A stretch of 13,749 bases of DNA from Prevotellaceae bacterium UBA7028 (GTDB lineage: Bacteria > Bacteroidota > Bacteroidia > Bacteroidales > Bacteroidaceae), in assembly GCA_002494215.1 (NCBI GenBank), contig DLBF01000065.1, positions 1 through 13,749 on the forward strand, read 5' to 3'. How positions within the stretch are numbered: position 1 is the first letter of the stretch; the number at the start of each line of letters is the position of its first letter. The notes beneath the pieces were generated by a model that was not told the origin of the DNA, did no database searches, and saw nothing but the letters and a program-made list of their open reading frames with translations. The position numbers and the translations under genes were made by a program. Of the stretch, positions 4,701 to 13,749 are shown in pieces.

Positions 4701-5911
4701 ATAAGCAGATTATCAGGGACAACTGGACGGCTATGGAGAACTACATGAACTTCCTCTCTACCAAGACGGAGGGTAGTTATAAGTACAATGGTGGCGAGAC
4801 TACATACGGCGACTGGGTGGCTTACGTGAATACCGATTCGCGTTACTGCAGTGTCTGCTACTATGCCCTTGATGCTCAGTTGATGGCCAAAATGGCCCGT
4901 GTACTTTCTACCTCAGAGACTGACAGCTATGCCCAGAAGGCCAAGCAATACGATGAACTCTTCCAGAATATTAAAGCTGAATGGCAGACACGTTACGCTA
5001 TCTCCTCTACAGGTGTACCCAACATCAATACTCAGTGTGCCTACCTTATGGCTTTGCATTACAATCTGTTACGCGATGAGAATGCCATTAAACGTACCAA
5101 GACGGCTCTTCGCAATGCCATCTCCAATAATGGCTACAAACTCAATACAGGCTTCCTGGGTACAGCTATCTTGAATCAGACACTTACGGAAAACGGTCTG
5201 AACGATGAGGCTTACACCCTGCTTCTTCAGCGTAATGATCCCTCGTGGCTTTATAGCATAGACCAGGGGGCCACCACCATCTGGGAGCGTTGGAATTCCT
5301 ATACTAAGGCTAGTGGATATGGTCCTGTCAGCATGAACTCCTTCAATCATTATGCTTATGGTATCATCGCCGAATGGATGTTCCGTCATATGGCAGGTAT
5401 CTGTCCGGATGAGGAGAATGCTGGCTTCAAGCATTTCATCCTTCGTCCCAATCCCGACACCCGTAAGATTCTTCGCTACCAGCAGAAGCGTATCACCAGT
5501 GTGGATGCTAACTTCTGGAGTGTCTATGGGCCTATCAAGGCAGCTTGGGTATGCGAGGGCGGAGCTGACATTACCTACGACGTTACCATCCCTGCCAACA
5601 CCACCGCTACACTCTATATGCCTGTTGCGGAAGGGTATGAACTTAAGGAAAGCGGTCAGCCTATATCTGAATGCAGTGATATAGAATACTTGGGTATGCA
5701 AGATGGCAGAGCTGTCTGTCGCTTAGGTTCCGGCTCTTATCGTTTTTCTGTGGATAACGCAACTGCAATTCATAATTCACAATTCATAATTCATAATGAG
5801 GGGGAGGTTTATGACCTGGGCGGACGTAAGATAGATTCTTCACTCTTCACTCTTCATTCTTCACTCAAGAAGGGAGTTTATATCCAGGAAGGTATAAAAA
5901 AGGCTATGTGA
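1781..5911 (+). CDS. Secreted GH78 alpha-L-rhamnosidase with tandem lectin-like modules
   Basis: This 1376-residue exo-glycosidase would remove terminal alpha-L-rhamnose from glycans or plant glycosides. A signal peptide covers residues 1-19 (MKRFILFATVCFVAISMFA). Residues ~20-125 are the fibronectin-like N-domain of GH78 enzymes. Residues ~158-470 are two related concanavalin-like modules (YYMWQVNT/TYMMWAINT; TYVDGVQVDT/TYIDDKLVDT; GDFGFR/GDVGFR). Residues ~530-700 are the rhamnosidase N-domain (SGWWSGAISHGMYG), then a beta domain to ~850 and the (alpha/alpha)6 barrel ~860-1205. In the barrel, DCPQRDERQGW at ~892-902 should hold the general acid (Glu898) and TTIWERW at ~1165-1171 the general base (Glu1169), by analogy with characterised GH78 enzymes. 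A beta domain follows to ~1325. The tail VYDLGGRK...KKGVYIQEGIKKAM resembles a type IX sorting motif and is interrupted by two heptamer arrays. It is probably controlled by the divergent AraC-type gene. Confidence 0.92.
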   Translation: MKRFILFATVCFVAISMFALEVNNLKTQAYTNPIGIDITTPSFSWMLSSTERGVVQVSYNIKVSTERDFSDVVWESGTIESNLSTDVMATGFSPKARTRYYWQVTVTDNKGNAATSQERAYFETGLKTATAWDNAKWIKATTNPKGEGSTDNPSEIKDYEVEVKFQIQQLAAGLIFAAKDHNSYYMWQVNTLTGSPRFRPHRWQNGGAACLSENALGVNVQNGEVHTLRIEVRDASTATTYVDGVQVDTRTGDFVYGDFGFREDYDNGNVAEQAFFDDFVVTSGGKILLQEHFDTEEGKMFNGGSVQDGRLYVSGPANYCWQLKMGKYVHYDIEADMTLVQDNASICFSATATDTYMMWAINTFDVSQPVVRRHVYSAGALTYNDTPIQGFTKADLIGKTHHIRIACETPYVRTYIDDKLVDTFVDASAVLAVGDVGFRVSATGNEREKAYFDNLKVTSYDAEGNASVTLSEDFEQATSIFDNADVRDYDGSRQVYMEAAVGNAKRMMQSDGSVLPGAPMMRKTFAATAAIKRARLYATGLGVYNVYINGTRVGITHDDGTTEQDELKPGFTEFLKTVFYTTHDVTALIHEGDNAIGAELTSGWWSGAISHGMYGSKPVAFRALLILTYEDGSEKIIPTDTSWSCNTNGALRKGDIYNGETYDARLESNWSEADFDDTDWFATAVSNDFQGTIRAFEGPAIKAVPALARQPKTITIYEGTKSNGKTYGAINTVSELIGQNNFQLKAGQTAIIDLAQNAAGWVSFTAKGVRGTRLRFRFGEMPNTTGDRNRGDDGPAGSVYTENLRSAEASLYYTLKGAEEGESFHPTTTFMGFRYIEVISSADVELTNVVGETVTSAMDERSSFKTSHPDVNQLYSNCMWGQRSNFLSVPTDCPQRDERQGWTADTQVYSMAGLYNADTRMFYEKFMRDMRDSQRSDGAFPHIAPYAWGVGHGAAAWADAGVILPWNVYLMTGDKQIIRDNWTAMENYMNFLSTKTEGSYKYNGGETTYGDWVAYVNTDSRYCSVCYYALDAQLMAKMARVLSTSETDSYAQKAKQYDELFQNIKAEWQTRYAISSTGVPNINTQCAYLMALHYNLLRDENAIKRTKTALRNAISNNGYKLNTGFLGTAILNQTLTENGLNDEAYTLLLQRNDPSWLYSIDQGATTIWERWNSYTKASGYGPVSMNSFNHYAYGIIAEWMFRHMAGICPDEENAGFKHFILRPNPDTRKILRYQQKRITSVDANFWSVYGPIKAAWVCEGGADITYDVTIPANTTATLYMPVAEGYELKESGQPISECSDIEYLGMQDGRAVCRLGSGSYRFSVDNATAIHNSQFIIHNEGEVYDLGGRKIDSSLFTLHSSLKKGVYIQEGIKKAM
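5767..5797 (+). repeat. Heptamer array (AATTCAY)4 inside the rhamnosidase gene
   Basis: Four AATTCAT/AATTCAC units with a 7-bp period plus AAT give 31 bp. They are read in frame as the low-complexity segment AIHNSQFIIHNE, between the end of the last catalytic-core domain and the sorting-like tail. Confidence 0.8.
5835..5866 (+). repeat. Heptamer array (CTTCAYT)4 inside the rhamnosidase gene
   Basis: A 32-bp block of ATT, four CTTCACT/CTTCATT units with a 7-bp period, and a final C. It is read in frame as DSSLFTLHSSL between VYDLGGRKI and KKGVYIQEG. The identical 32 bases occur at 8610-8641 outside a gene. Confidence 0.85.
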
Positions 5912-8609: not shown

Positions 8610-8641
8610 ATTCTTCACTCTTCACTCTTCATTCTTCACTC
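8610..8641 (+). repeat. Second copy of the 32-bp (CTTCAYT)4 element
   Basis: All 32 bases match 5835-5866. This copy is intergenic and abuts the stop codon (8642-8644) of the oxidoreductase gene. The sequences on either side of the two copies do not match, so the repeat itself is the shared unit. Confidence 0.85.
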
Positions 8642-10028: not shown

Positions 10029-12239
10029 TTATTCTTTTTCTTGCTCGGGTTTTGGATTTTCTTCTGATTTTGTCGCCTCATCAGCGGGTTTAACCTTATC
10101 AAAAAGCTTATAAGTGGTACGCAATACCTTAAATTCCGTACGACGGTTATAAGCGTGGCATATTTCTTGTTTCTCGACATCCTCTAAGCGAAGAATAAAG
10201 GCTTCTGTAAGTGTGTCGCCCTCATGCAGGAAGTCGTTCTGCTCTGCTATCTTACGTGTTACCACCTTGGGCTTCTTCTCGCCATAGCCAACAGGGGTAA
10301 GGCGCTCAGCCTCGATGCCGTGTTCAATCAGATAGTTGACAACACTCTCGGCACGACGCTGGCTCAGTTTCTCGTTATATTCGTCCTTGCCTCGGAAGTC
10401 GCAATGCGAGGAAAGTTCAATGGTGACATTAGGATTCTCGTTCAGCAGGTCCACCAAACTGTCCAAGGCCTGCGTGCTGTTTTCTGTAAGGGCAGCGCTA
10501 TCGAACTCATAGAACACATTGCGGATAAGCACGGGGTTGTTGATGCTGGCCAATGGGAATTGCAGAACAAACTCCTGACTGACGCTGCTGGTGTCGACAT
10601 GCAGTTCCTCCTTGTGGTTCAGATAACCTGTGCAGGTGCCTAGGAAGACGTAGTCTACGTTGGGCTGAACCTCCTGTACAAAGGATCCGTCGCCATGGAC
10701 GCTCAGTTTCTGATACGTTCCATCATTGCCAACCATATAGACAAGGCCCTCGGGTAGCTCATAGCCGTCCTTTTCGTACACCCATCCCTTTACGGTGTGG
10801 ATAACTTCGGGGCATTCAAAGGACATGATATGATCCCATCCGCGGGCATCGCCTCTGTTGGTGCAGAAGTATCCTCTGTTGTGCAGTCCCTCGAATGTCA
10901 TGCCAAAGTCGTCTCCGCTACTGTTCATGGGTACCTTCAGGTTCTCTATCTGCCAGTTACCTGTTACAGTATCGCGCTTAGCTTTGAAGATGTCCAAACC
11001 GCCCATACCAACGTGCCCGTTGCTCGAGAAGTAAAGTTCTCCATTTGGACGGAAAGAAGGAAACATCTCGTCGCCTTCTGTGTTGATGGGCTCGCCTACG
11101 TTCTCAACGCCTCCTAAGCCGCCACCCTCCATAAGGGCGATGCGCCAGATATCCTTTCCGCCATAGCCACCTGGCATATCGCTGGTAAAGTACAGCCATT
11201 TGCCGTCGGGTGAGATGGTAGGATGGGCGTAGCTGGAAAGCGTGTCCTTGGTAATCTGCAGCAACTGTGGTTTGCTCCATGAGGCATCGCTGCGCTGGCT
11301 GGTGTATATCTCGGCATAGCGGGGATAGTCAGGGTCGTAAGTGCAACGAGTAAGGTACATGGTCTTTCCGTCGGGCGAGAAGCAGCAGGCACCTTCATCG
11401 TATTCGCTGTTCAGTTCACCTTCGGCCATCTCAGGACTTCCCCATTTACCCTTGTCGTCTTTTTTGCTGAAGAAAATATCCGAGCTCTTGGTTCCTGTGA
11501 TACCGCTTATCTCGTCTCCGGTAGCCTGAGGGCGTGTGGTAGAGAAGTAGAGTTGATCGGCTTCGCTGCCAAGAAGCATAGGCGAGTAATCGGCACGCCT
11601 GCTACTTAGGATGGGTTCCTTCTTGATGCTATAAAGCGTGGGCTTATTCTTCCAAATGGGAGCCTGCATACATCCTTGAATACCATTGATGGCAAGCTTG
11701 GCGCCAGGCACCATCTCCAGATAGGTTTTATAGTTCTTGATGGCGGTTTTATAGTCACCTTGCTTGTGCTGCAACTGGGCCAGATAGAGCCATGCCAAAG
11801 TGTCTGGGTAATTGTAGCGGACGGCATTCTGGTAGGCACCAATGGCTTTGGCGTTATAGTTAATCTTTCTGTAGCACTCTGCCATCTTCCAGGCCCGGAC
11901 GCCACGCTTCTCTTTTTCTGTGGTCTTGGTACGGGCGTAGGCTTTCTTGTATTCGGCAGCAGCATCAAAGTATTCGCCAATGGCATAAAACTGATCGCCT
12001 TTCTTCAGGTGGTTGTCGGCACCACAGGAAGAGAGCAGGCATACTCCTGCAAGAATAAAAAGGAGATAAAAGGAGATAAAGGGAGATAGAAAGGAGATAA
12101 AGGGAGATAAAGGGAGATAGAAGGGAGATAAAGGGAGATAAAGGGAGATAGAAGAAGACAAAAGACGGGTGTGTCGTCCTCTATCTTCTGACGCTGAAAA
12201 GCGGCAGTCTTTCTCTATCTTCCTATCCTTTCCTAACAT
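10029..12239 (-). CDS. porE: PorE-like lipoprotein: TPR, PD40 propeller, regulatory beta domain and OmpA domain
   Basis: This is a 736-residue outer-membrane-associated lipoprotein. A lipobox LLSSC places the lipidated cysteine at residue 72. Domains in order: TPR helices ~77-180 (GDQFYAIGEYFDAAAEYKKAY), a WD40-like PD40 propeller ~210-475 (CCFSPDGKTMYLT, PTISPDGKWLYFTSD, PSFRPNGELYFSSNG), a carboxypeptidase-regulatory-like beta domain ~478-565, and an OmpA peptidoglycan-binding domain ~570-715 (ELSSHCDFRG, LSQRRAESVVNYL). This is the order known for Porphyromonas gingivalis PorE of the type IX secretion system, which anchors the machine to the cell wall. Orthology rather than mere shared architecture is inference. 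The signal region is abnormally long, because a 3 x 31-bp array encodes residues ~29-59. ATG 12239 is the only Met before the lipobox. The gene lies 31 bp after topB. Confidence 0.8.
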   Translation of the reverse strand: MLGKDRKIEKDCRFSASEDRGRHTRLLSSSISLYLPLSPFYLPLSPFISFLSPFISFYLLFILAGVCLLSSCGADNHLKKGDQFYAIGEYFDAAAEYKKAYARTKTTEKEKRGVRAWKMAECYRKINYNAKAIGAYQNAVRYNYPDTLAWLYLAQLQHKQGDYKTAIKNYKTYLEMVPGAKLAINGIQGCMQAPIWKNKPTLYSIKKEPILSSRRADYSPMLLGSEADQLYFSTTRPQATGDEISGITGTKSSDIFFSKKDDKGKWGSPEMAEGELNSEYDEGACCFSPDGKTMYLTRCTYDPDYPRYAEIYTSQRSDASWSKPQLLQITKDTLSSYAHPTISPDGKWLYFTSDMPGGYGGKDIWRIALMEGGGLGGVENVGEPINTEGDEMFPSFRPNGELYFSSNGHVGMGGLDIFKAKRDTVTGNWQIENLKVPMNSSGDDFGMTFEGLHNRGYFCTNRGDARGWDHIMSFECPEVIHTVKGWVYEKDGYELPEGLVYMVGNDGTYQKLSVHGDGSFVQEVQPNVDYVFLGTCTGYLNHKEELHVDTSSVSQEFVLQFPLASINNPVLIRNVFYEFDSAALTENSTQALDSLVDLLNENPNVTIELSSHCDFRGKDEYNEKLSQRRAESVVNYLIEHGIEAERLTPVGYGEKKPKVVTRKIAEQNDFLHEGDTLTEAFILRLEDVEKQEICHAYNRRTEFKVLRTTYKLFDKVKPADEATKSEENPKPEQEKE
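12062..12154 (-). repeat. 3 x 31-bp tandem repeat of decamer units inside the PorE-like signal sequence
   Basis: Nine GGAGAT cores (plus strand) start at 12062, 12072, 12082, 12093, 12103, 12113, 12124, 12134 and 12144, giving a 10-10-11 spacing and a 31-bp superperiod. Units 12093-12123 and 12124-12154 are identical; 12062-12092 differs at two positions. On the coding strand no stop codon occurs in any frame within the array. Because 31 is not a multiple of three, loss or gain of one unit shifts the frame of the downstream lipoprotein. Confidence 0.9.
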
Positions 12240-12270
12240 AATTAACGTGATTATTCTATATAATAACGTA

Positions 12271-13749
12271 TTAGGTACGCTTTTTATTGCCTTTCTTGTT
12301 AATTACAGGCTCAACAGTCACGCTGATCTGTCGCGGATTTCTGTCGTTCAACACTGATGTGACGATATCCGTTACCATCTGCTTGAGCTCTTCCAGGAAG
12401 GTCTTTGCCTGATATTCCTTGCGTTCTATCATTCTCAGTTTCTTCTCCCAAAGACCTGTCAGTTCGGCGCTCTTTAACAGTTCCTCGTGGATAATCTCTA
12501 TCAATTCCACACCCGTTGGAGTTGCCCAAAGGCTTTTCTTCTCCTTACGGATATAATGACGGCGGAAGAGTGTCTCTATGATGGCAGCGCGGGTACTGGG
12601 GCGACCGATACCGTTCTCCTTCAATGCATCGCGCAGCTCCTCGTCTTCGACCATCTTACCTGCCGTTTCCATTGCACGGAGCAGGGTTGCTTCGGTATAG
12701 GGTTTGGGAGGTGTGGTCCATTTGTCGGTGAGTGAGGGAATGTGCGGACCACTCTCGCCTTTCTCGAAGATGGGGAGCGAAGCATCTGCAGCTTCTGGTC
12801 CTTTCTCCAAGCCCTCCCCTTCGGAGGGGGTCTCTTTCTTGAAGACTACCTTCCAACCTTCATCAGTGGTTACACGTCCGTTCACACGGAAGAGGACAGA
12901 TTCTTCCTCTGTTTTTTTGACTTCGCCAATAACGGTGGTAGTCTCGAAGAGGCAATCTGGATAGAAAGCGGCAATGAAGGCGCGTGCAATCAGGTCGAAC
13001 ACCTTCCATTCCATCTCTGTAAGTCCCTGGGGTGATACGCCTGTGGGTATGATAGCGTGGTGGTCCGTAACCTTGCTGTTGTCAAATATCTTCTTGCTTT
13101 TCTTCAGAGGTTTTCCTCCTAACGCTTTTACTATCTCTGCATAAGGTTGTACACCTGCGTTCTTGGTCAGGAACAGGCCGTTCATGATCTGAGGGCACTT
13201 GGGGTACACATCATCAGGCAGGAACGTGGTGTCAACACGGGGATAGGTAGCGAACTTCTTCTCGTAGAGGCTCTGTATGACGTTCAGCGTCTGGTCTGCA
13301 CTGAAGCCGAACTTCTTGTTGCAATCTACCTGCAGGCTGGTCAGGTCATAGAGGCGGGGTGGTGTTTCAACGCCTTTCTTTTTGGTAATAGACAGAACGG
13401 TGAAGGGCTTGTCCTTGATGGCCTCCAGCACGTCCTTGCCTTCCTGCTCAGTGGCATATTCCATCTGTCGGTAGATGGGGCCTTTGCTCTTCATCGTCTT
13501 GCCCTGTTTGGCGGCTTCGGCAATCTCGGCTGCTTCCTCGGCTTCCGCCTCTTCGTCGCGCATGATGGCACTGAACTTAACATCTCTATATAAGGTGGAA
13601 AGAATCCACGATTGACGTGGAACGAAGTTCTCTATCTCCTTCTGACGGTTGACAATCAGCGCCAACGTGGGGGTCTGTACACGACCTACACTCAGTACCT
13701 GATGTTTGCCGTAGGCATATTTCTGCGTATAGAGGCGTGTGGCATTCAT
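12271..13749 (-). CDS. topB: DNA topoisomerase III-like type IA topoisomerase, N-terminus beyond the window
   Basis: The 492 visible residues relax or decatenate DNA by cutting one strand. The gene is open to the right edge, and the leading MNATRLYT is an internal segment of type IA enzymes, so the TOPRIM domain (roughly 150-200 residues) lies outside. Visible landmarks are VGRVQTPTLALIV at 21-33, the active-site tyrosine in FATYPRVDT (Tyr169 in this numbering), HHAIIPTG at 230-237 and the GIGRPSTRAAIIETL motif at 380-394. The C-terminus is short and basic (NKKGNKKRT) with no zinc-binding cysteines, which favours topoisomerase III over TopA. Two low-complexity insertions stand out: an acidic Ala/Glu stretch at ~65-89 and PSEGEGLEKGPEAADA at ~308-323, the latter encoded by a GC-rich palindrome. 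It ends 31 bp before the PorE-like gene and may be co-transcribed with it. Confidence 0.88.
   Translation of the reverse strand: MNATRLYTQKYAYGKHQVLSVGRVQTPTLALIVNRQKEIENFVPRQSWILSTLYRDVKFSAIMRDEEAEAEEAAEIAEAAKQGKTMKSKGPIYRQMEYATEQEGKDVLEAIKDKPFTVLSITKKKGVETPPRLYDLTSLQVDCNKKFGFSADQTLNVIQSLYEKKFATYPRVDTTFLPDDVYPKCPQIMNGLFLTKNAGVQPYAEIVKALGGKPLKKSKKIFDNSKVTDHHAIIPTGVSPQGLTEMEWKVFDLIARAFIAAFYPDCLFETTTVIGEVKKTEEESVLFRVNGRVTTDEGWKVVFKKETPSEGEGLEKGPEAADASLPIFEKGESGPHIPSLTDKWTTPPKPYTEATLLRAMETAGKMVEDEELRDALKENGIGRPSTRAAIIETLFRRHYIRKEKKSLWATPTGVELIEIIHEELLKSAELTGLWEKKLRMIERKEYQAKTFLEELKQMVTDIVTSVLNDRNPRQISVTVEPVINKKGNKKRT
12812..12828 (-). repeat. GC-rich palindrome inside topB
   Basis: CCCTCC (12812-12817), a 5-base loop CCTTC and GGAGGG (12823-12828) form a perfect 6-bp hairpin. 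It is read in frame as PSEGEG in a linker of the topoisomerase. From memory, similar palindromes are common between genes in Prevotella; this was not checked. Confidence 0.5.

Follow-up and report, generated by a model that had tools for sequence, protein, structure and literature searches.

Results

The Window Codes for a PorE Lipoprotein

The DNA analyzed here, i.e., a stretch of 13,749 nucleotides from Prevotellaceae bacterium UBA7028 that we refer to as the window, carries on its reverse strand, at 10029-12239, a gene whose 736-residue product comprises a leader, a TPR region, a PD40 propeller and an OmpA domain. A first-pass annotation had described this product as a PorE-like lipoprotein, and the NCBIfam model NF052230 (T9SS_PorE) bore this out, matching residues 59-707 with 1085 bits against a cut-off of 600. 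The Pfam domains followed the order expected in PorE (TPR, beta-propeller, OmpA_C-like): TPR_16 at residues 130-180, with a score of 31.4 bits that is slightly below the cut-off of 32.7, PD40 with its best match at 339-366, and OmpA at 576-667. By eye, there was a lipoprotein signal with the lipobox LLSSC at residues 68-72, of which the cysteine, Cys72, is encoded at 12024-12026 on the reverse strand.

Passages of PMC7192894 describe PorE as essential for the type IX secretion system (T9SS) in Porphyromonas gingivalis. The window protein shares with P. gingivalis PorE the family model, the lipoprotein character, and the TPR, propeller and OmpA domains; it differs in that those passages mention no leader repeat, whereas here the cysteine is preceded by a 71-residue leader with a repeat-coded core. 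Type IX secretion, the context that had been proposed for the gene, was supported in relatives by the SprA translocon, which scored above cut-off in all eight searched. In one of them, G005, SprA was in two pieces on a single contig (C84, 5898-13428), representing either a gene break or an assembly fault. Separately, the porE matches on contig C63 of G017 and contig C10 of G104 were split near residue 420 within one long open frame (805 and 821 aa), which suggests that some 20 codons have been inserted.

The window also codes for a rhamnosidase, which the first-pass annotation had counted among the cargo of type IX secretion. By eye its tail does resemble a sorting domain, but no type IX sorting domain was found in it with Pfam or NCBIfam. 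Two 7-bp arrays lie at the end of this gene, one of AATTCAT (5767-5797) and one of TCTTCAC (5837-5866), flanking a YDLGGRK motif and preceding KKGVYI in the segment that looks like a type IX sorting tail; a change in their copy number would shift the frame of the tail. Units of 7 bp also occur in L002, where a gene ends in a similar tail.

A Non-Triplet Repeat Lies between the Start Codon and the Mature Part of PorE

Tandem Repeats Finder and inspection of the sequence delimited an array at 12062-12154 (reverse strand), consisting of three 31-bp copies of 10 + 10 + 11 bp each, i.e., nine units of 10, 10 and 11 bp that read TATCTCCYTT on the gene strand. Two of the copies, 12093-12123 and 12124-12154 (together 12093-12154, reverse strand), were identical on comparison, as had been noted before, and the third (12062-12092) differed from them at 2 of 31 positions. 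The shorter units were not all identical and differed at several positions. The array scored 171 with a period of 31 bp over 12055-12164, whereas no array scored above 70 when the window was dinucleotide-shuffled 100 times, which rules out a chance origin. An assembly error is unlikely as its source, because the whole repeat (110 bp) fits into one ordinary short read.

The signal peptide owes its hydrophobic stretch largely to the array. Its coding strand is 90% pyrimidine and reads L, F, S, I, P and Y in every frame, and as a non-triplet repeat it separates the porE start codon from the mature part of the protein. The start is an ATG at 12237-12239 (reverse strand), the sole in-frame ATG upstream of Cys72. 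The position of the array between start and Cys72 thus stood as first described, but the statement that this was the only start codon holds for ATG alone, since an in-frame TTG, the sole other start ahead of Cys72, occurs at 12159-12161 (reverse strand). It too lies 5' of the array, and downstream of it the leader contains no K or R. Translation starting downstream of the array was rejected: there is no in-frame ATG, GTG or TTG between the array and Cys72, and such a start is also contradicted by the ATG and an upstream box that are conserved in relatives free of the array (see below).

The earlier reading had further held that the array is open in all three frames, that both wrong frames stop soon after it, and that a change of one unit shifts the frame. 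Analysis of frames and stops agreed on each point. Both wrong frames were stop-free across the array, with first stops at 12005-12007 and 11965-11967 (reverse strand), about 18 and 32 codons past it, respectively. From the last upstream stop to the array, neither wrong frame contained an ATG, GTG or TTG, so that no start would rescue it.

The Nearest Relatives Share the Leader but Lack the Array

The nearest relatives are, by their record titles, metagenome-assembled Bacteroidales, mostly from ruminant forestomachs. In the eight nearest genomes the mature part of PorE was 88-91% identical to that of the window. Five of them (L001, L002, L004, L078 and L104) had in common the ATG and a leader of 47-48 residues; proteins P0001 and P0002 had the same layout as these five array-free relatives, and the leader of P0003 was that of L104. 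The other three genomes (L003, L005 and L006) had shorter, different leaders. The array was absent from all eight, and from P0001, P0002 and P0003.

Upstream of the start we found a putative promoter-like box, ACGTTATTATATAG, at 12256-12269 (reverse strand), which was invariant in L001, L002, L003, L004, L078 and L104. In the alignment it lay 16 nt 5' of the ATG in the window and 17 nt in five relatives. Because start, box and leader are common to five relatives, comparison with array-free orthologs gives good support for the leader start and for the location of the array inside the signal peptide. The array itself, absent in every relative examined, is therefore a young feature of one lineage rather than a conserved switch, and the leader region is labile, given that three of the eight nearest genomes have altogether different leaders. 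In the front of the leader (24 residues), pN/pS was 0.50 when summed over ten pairs of five sequences, versus 0.71 and 0.63 in the wrong frames, which hints weakly at constraint on the protein.

Relative to the five genomes with the same leader, the window has gained about 72 nt, in frame. Before the cysteine there are 71 residues in the window and 47 in L001, i.e., a gain of 72 nt, which arithmetically equals 31 + 31 + 10. At the position of the window array, the porE leader of L003 contained a related 10-bp unit in three copies, so that a seed of 10-bp units may have been present before the expansion. The length of the L003 leader differed by whole codons, as did, at the protein level, that of P0004. 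A genome-wide family of the porE 10-bp unit was mostly rejected, with 0-2 matches (at most 2 mismatches) per genome in the seven nearest; G009 had 10 matches, against 5 for a reversed-pattern control.

These comparisons bear on the view that the array arose by one or two duplications and is now nearly static, with only in-frame alleles surviving. The units have already diverged at several positions, the frame is intact in the sole allele seen, a leader of 47-48 residues persists in five relatives, and the leaders of L003 and P0004 differ by whole codons, all of which would fit. The two identical 31-bp copies point instead to a recent duplication, and the leader changes described below, in a repeat-bearing group of PorE proteins whose mature part stays 98.7% identical on average, also speak against a static leader. 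We regard this view as distinctly unlikely.

A Conserved Hairpin Adjoins the Array

Folding and comparison revealed that the coding region of the leader forms a hairpin of 15 bp at 12153-12189 (reverse strand), immediately 5' of the array and just touching it. A 13-bp helix was present at the same place in L001, L002, L004, L078 and L104, so that the hairpin occurred in 6/6 sequences with this leader; L003 has lost the stretch. Local 61-nt folds had z values of -2.9 to -4.3, with 0-3 of 300 shuffles equally stable, and the 237-nt 5' end of window porE had a z of -3.25. Over the 150 nt from the ATG, z ranged from -0.8 to -3.3, and in L004 the fold was matched by 55 of 300 shuffles.

In the alignment of the six sequences, one pair (columns 14-22) occurred as GC, AU, GU and UG through amino-acid-changing substitutions, and 98.7% of cells paired, compared with 44-62% in slid controls. 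The percentage paired was reached by 30 of 500 shuffles and the covariation score by 20 of 500. One pair changed on both sides, a count that 351 of 500 shuffles reached. The conservation of the hairpin across six sequences is suggestive, and its pairing pattern may have been selected or may be a product of palindrome correction.

If nucleic-acid structure were what is selected, with the hairpin tuning translation or mRNA lifetime together with the pairs that it forms with the pyrimidine-rich array, the frame would be incidental. The shared helix, the local and 237-nt folds and the pairing kept through amino-acid-changing substitutions are in line with such a role. Yet the comparison comprises six sequences with a single doubly changed pair at a count common among shuffles, the folds are weaker over 150 nt, palindrome correction during replication could mimic the pattern, and L003 has lost the stretch. 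Moreover, five relatives have the hairpin without the array, which leaves the array unexplained. We consider this role very improbable.

As a dispersed element the leader hairpin was rejected: there were 0-3 matches per genome in eight genomes, and the other matches were about as numerous as those of the reversed-pattern control. Two other palindromes were seen. In another porE clade, comprising L023, L129 and the protein group around P0087, a GC-rich palindrome codes for the leader part PLSSREG, and in L129 it adjoins a 15-bp repeat; leaders in this clade vary widely although the mature parts are on average 98.7% identical. The palindrome ccctccccttcggaggggg, at 12812-12830 within the gene for DNA topoisomerase III, looks like a dispersed one.

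All porE Loci Surveyed Are in Frame

Among the matches listed (120 of 8000 scored), there was no protein more than 87% identical to window PorE and no second allele of the window species. Nor was there an OFF allele: in the best 80 of 310 relatives, 80/80 porE loci were in frame, each with an in-frame ATG, GTG or TTG at least 12 codons 5' of the cysteine (ATG in 70). The gene was open in 10/10 genomes. Several of 139 genomes of the genus had one or two stops within the matched porE stretch; in L123, the one inspected, this was the natural gene end.

The first-pass annotation had proposed that slippage in the array switches the lipoprotein off and on. The part of this proposal that concerns the arrangement of frames and the position of the array in the leader held, whereas neither a second allele nor, at 80 loci, an OFF allele was found. 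A porE phase switch is therefore no more than possible.

Leaders Change Faster than the Mature Protein in a Repeat-Bearing porE Group

We compared the leaders of 178 of 182 PorE proteins, leaving out four in which no cysteine was found, after single-linkage clustering at 97% mature identity, which gave 21 groups; some leaders (P0108, P0114, P0071 and P0078) depend on the starts chosen by gene callers. In one group of 21 proteins, mean identity was 98.7% in the mature part versus 59% in the leader. By eye, 13 of these leaders contained FIT-type repeats, and 8 had no evident repeat. A second group with repeat leaders (three proteins) had a leader identity of 70%. Mean leader identity in the remaining 19 groups, which had no such leaders, was at least 81% in 17 and stood at 78% and 65% in the other two, the last figure being low because of differing start calls. 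The mature parts of P0099 and P0108 were 100% identical, but their leaders had different starts.

The sole repeat-bearing DNA copy seen for the 21-protein group, L129, had a 15-bp unit, which would keep the frame. The repeat-linked variability envisaged for the window gene was present in another porE group. As indirect, sequence-based evidence, this suggests that leader repeats accompany fast leader change, with the frame-shifting kind not among it so far.

Arrays near Gene Starts Resemble Intergenic Arrays

Arrays in the porE leader occurred at three other loci, with units of 10 bp (L003), 7 bp (L034) and 8 bp (L038), and signal-peptide arrays in other genes were seen in L007, L011, L038 and L039. 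The arrays of the L003, L034, L038, L007, L011 and L039 leaders were 83-92% pyrimidine, and each of their frames was free of stops and for the most part hydrophobic; the exceptions in pyrimidine content among signal-peptide arrays were L025 (0.55) and L170 (0.58). At the protein level, the leaders of P0137 and P0139 looked alike in kind by eye. An array scoring at least 40 lay near the porE start in 14 of 80 loci, in some cases outside the coding sequence. By a crude rule, signal-peptide arrays were rare, at 9/726 or about 1 in 100: 8/442 in the 80 porE loci (of which L074 looks false), 0/149 in 396 kb of G002 and 1/135 in 397 kb of G007. The L003 porE and L025 arrays were added by eye.

To place these in context, we surveyed arrays by compartment in those loci that had any (76 of 80; 1.37 of 1.42 Mb). 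Genes were called crudely, from ATG only, so that wrongly placed starts may account for some of the "first codons". Arrays scoring at least 50 reached a density of 104.7 per 100 kb in intergenic DNA; within genes, the values were 18.5 for the first 45 codons, 14.5 for the last 45 and 7.4 for the interior. Units were of non-triplet length in 165/198 intergenic arrays, 17/23 in the first 45 codons and 15/69 in gene interiors (first 45 codons versus interiors, Fisher p 1.9e-5). In unit length, therefore, arrays of the first 45 codons resemble intergenic ones and not interior ones.

A 7-bp TTCACTC family was found in 10/10 genomes, with 20-193 matches each (overlaps counted apart) against 0-37 for controls. 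In the window, an identical 32-nt stretch of 7-bp repeats occurs at 5835-5866, at a gene end, and at 8610-8641, almost wholly in intergenic DNA; arrays of this kind occur in the genomes of 10/10 relatives.

Discussion

Our preferred reading, to which we give a probability of about 60%, is that the array is a tolerated, frame-sensitive slippage hot spot in the porE leader. It would be a young minisatellite, made by slippage within the segment coding for the signal peptide, which grew out of a short hydrophobic core that was probably already periodic at 10 bp. The leader can tolerate the array as long as the downstream frame is right, because the 90% pyrimidine repeat reads stop-free in every frame. 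Gain or loss of one 10-bp or 31-bp unit, the presumed slippage step, would shift the frame by one and yield a truncated peptide without the lipobox, and three such steps would merely make the core longer or shorter, with the frame kept. In this way the gene would give rise to cells devoid of PorE and, if Porphyromonas gingivalis is a guide, unable to secrete type IX cargo; we infer both the hypermutability of the array and the loss of secretion. In favor of a hot spot are the frames and stops, the array-free leaders of five relatives, the related units of L003, the lability of the region, the non-triplet arrays near gene starts and in other signal peptides, and the variable leaders of another porE group. 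Several points tell against it: neither a second allele among the matches listed nor an OFF allele at 80 loci was found, non-identical units lower slippage, the 15-bp unit of L129 keeps the frame, 8/21 leaders of the hypervariable group have no evident repeat, and the 10-bp unit forms no genome-wide family in the nearest relatives.

By analogy, the array is plausible as a repeat-length hot spot of the kind known from opa and oipA. Opa leaders tolerate many unit numbers. The Neisseria opa genes are described, in passages of PMC3960869, as having CTCTT pentamers as coding repeats in the region of the leader peptide, where a change of a unit shifts the frame. Window porE likewise has a pyrimidine-rich, non-triplet repeat in its signal-peptide region; the opa genes differ in their 5-bp units, in that switching was measured and in that the product is an opacity protein, whereas porE has imperfect units of 10, 10 and 11 bp and codes for part of a secretion system. 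In Helicobacter pylori oipA, passages of PMC10564699, which compiled 536 sequences, place CT repeats in the signal-peptide region, with wrong frames generally reaching a stop. The repeat in the signal-peptide region and the stops in the wrong frames recur in window porE, but oipA has a dinucleotide repeat, encodes an outer-membrane protein and is represented by those 536 sequences, while window porE is known from one allele. On paper, the layout is of the opa or oipA type and would work likewise, as judged here from one sequence.

This likeness also speaks for a stronger proposal, i.e., that the array is a selected contingency switch, in which reversible slippage toggles PorE and thereby everything that the type IX system secretes, and which is favored because secretion is costly or exposed. 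The architecture matches opa and oipA, the required arrangement of frames is in place, and leaders vary in another porE group. On the other hand, no variant was seen, the array occurs in one lineage only, and there was no OFF allele at 80 loci; since arrays in these genomes are mostly intergenic, the presence of one needs no adaptive cause. We judge a selected switch unlikely and favor a tolerated hot spot over it.

Invertible DNA is the usual switch in Bacteroidales, and to our knowledge switching by frame slippage has been little described there. In the open-licence literature we found no report of tandem-repeat phase variation in type IX secretion and none of heptanucleotide repeats in Prevotella, and on phase variation through signal-peptide tandem repeats in Prevotella nothing beyond a work unrelated by its title; open-licence passages on phase-variable type IX secretion or on slipped-strand signal peptides in Bacteroidales contained nothing on this. 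It is tempting, if doubtful, to see here an unrecognized opa-like class of genes in gut and rumen Bacteroidales, in which non-triplet, mostly pyrimidine-rich arrays that spread at gene edges have come to serve as signal-peptide cores and slippage switches the genes, PorE included. Were this true, the entire type IX secretome would change state with one switch in porE, and a single repeat would control the secretion of a whole set of enzymes in gut bacteria. Even if the porE array is only a tolerated hot spot, it could serve as a marker for strain typing, and it shows how simple repeats can make up a signal peptide because they are hydrophobic in every frame.
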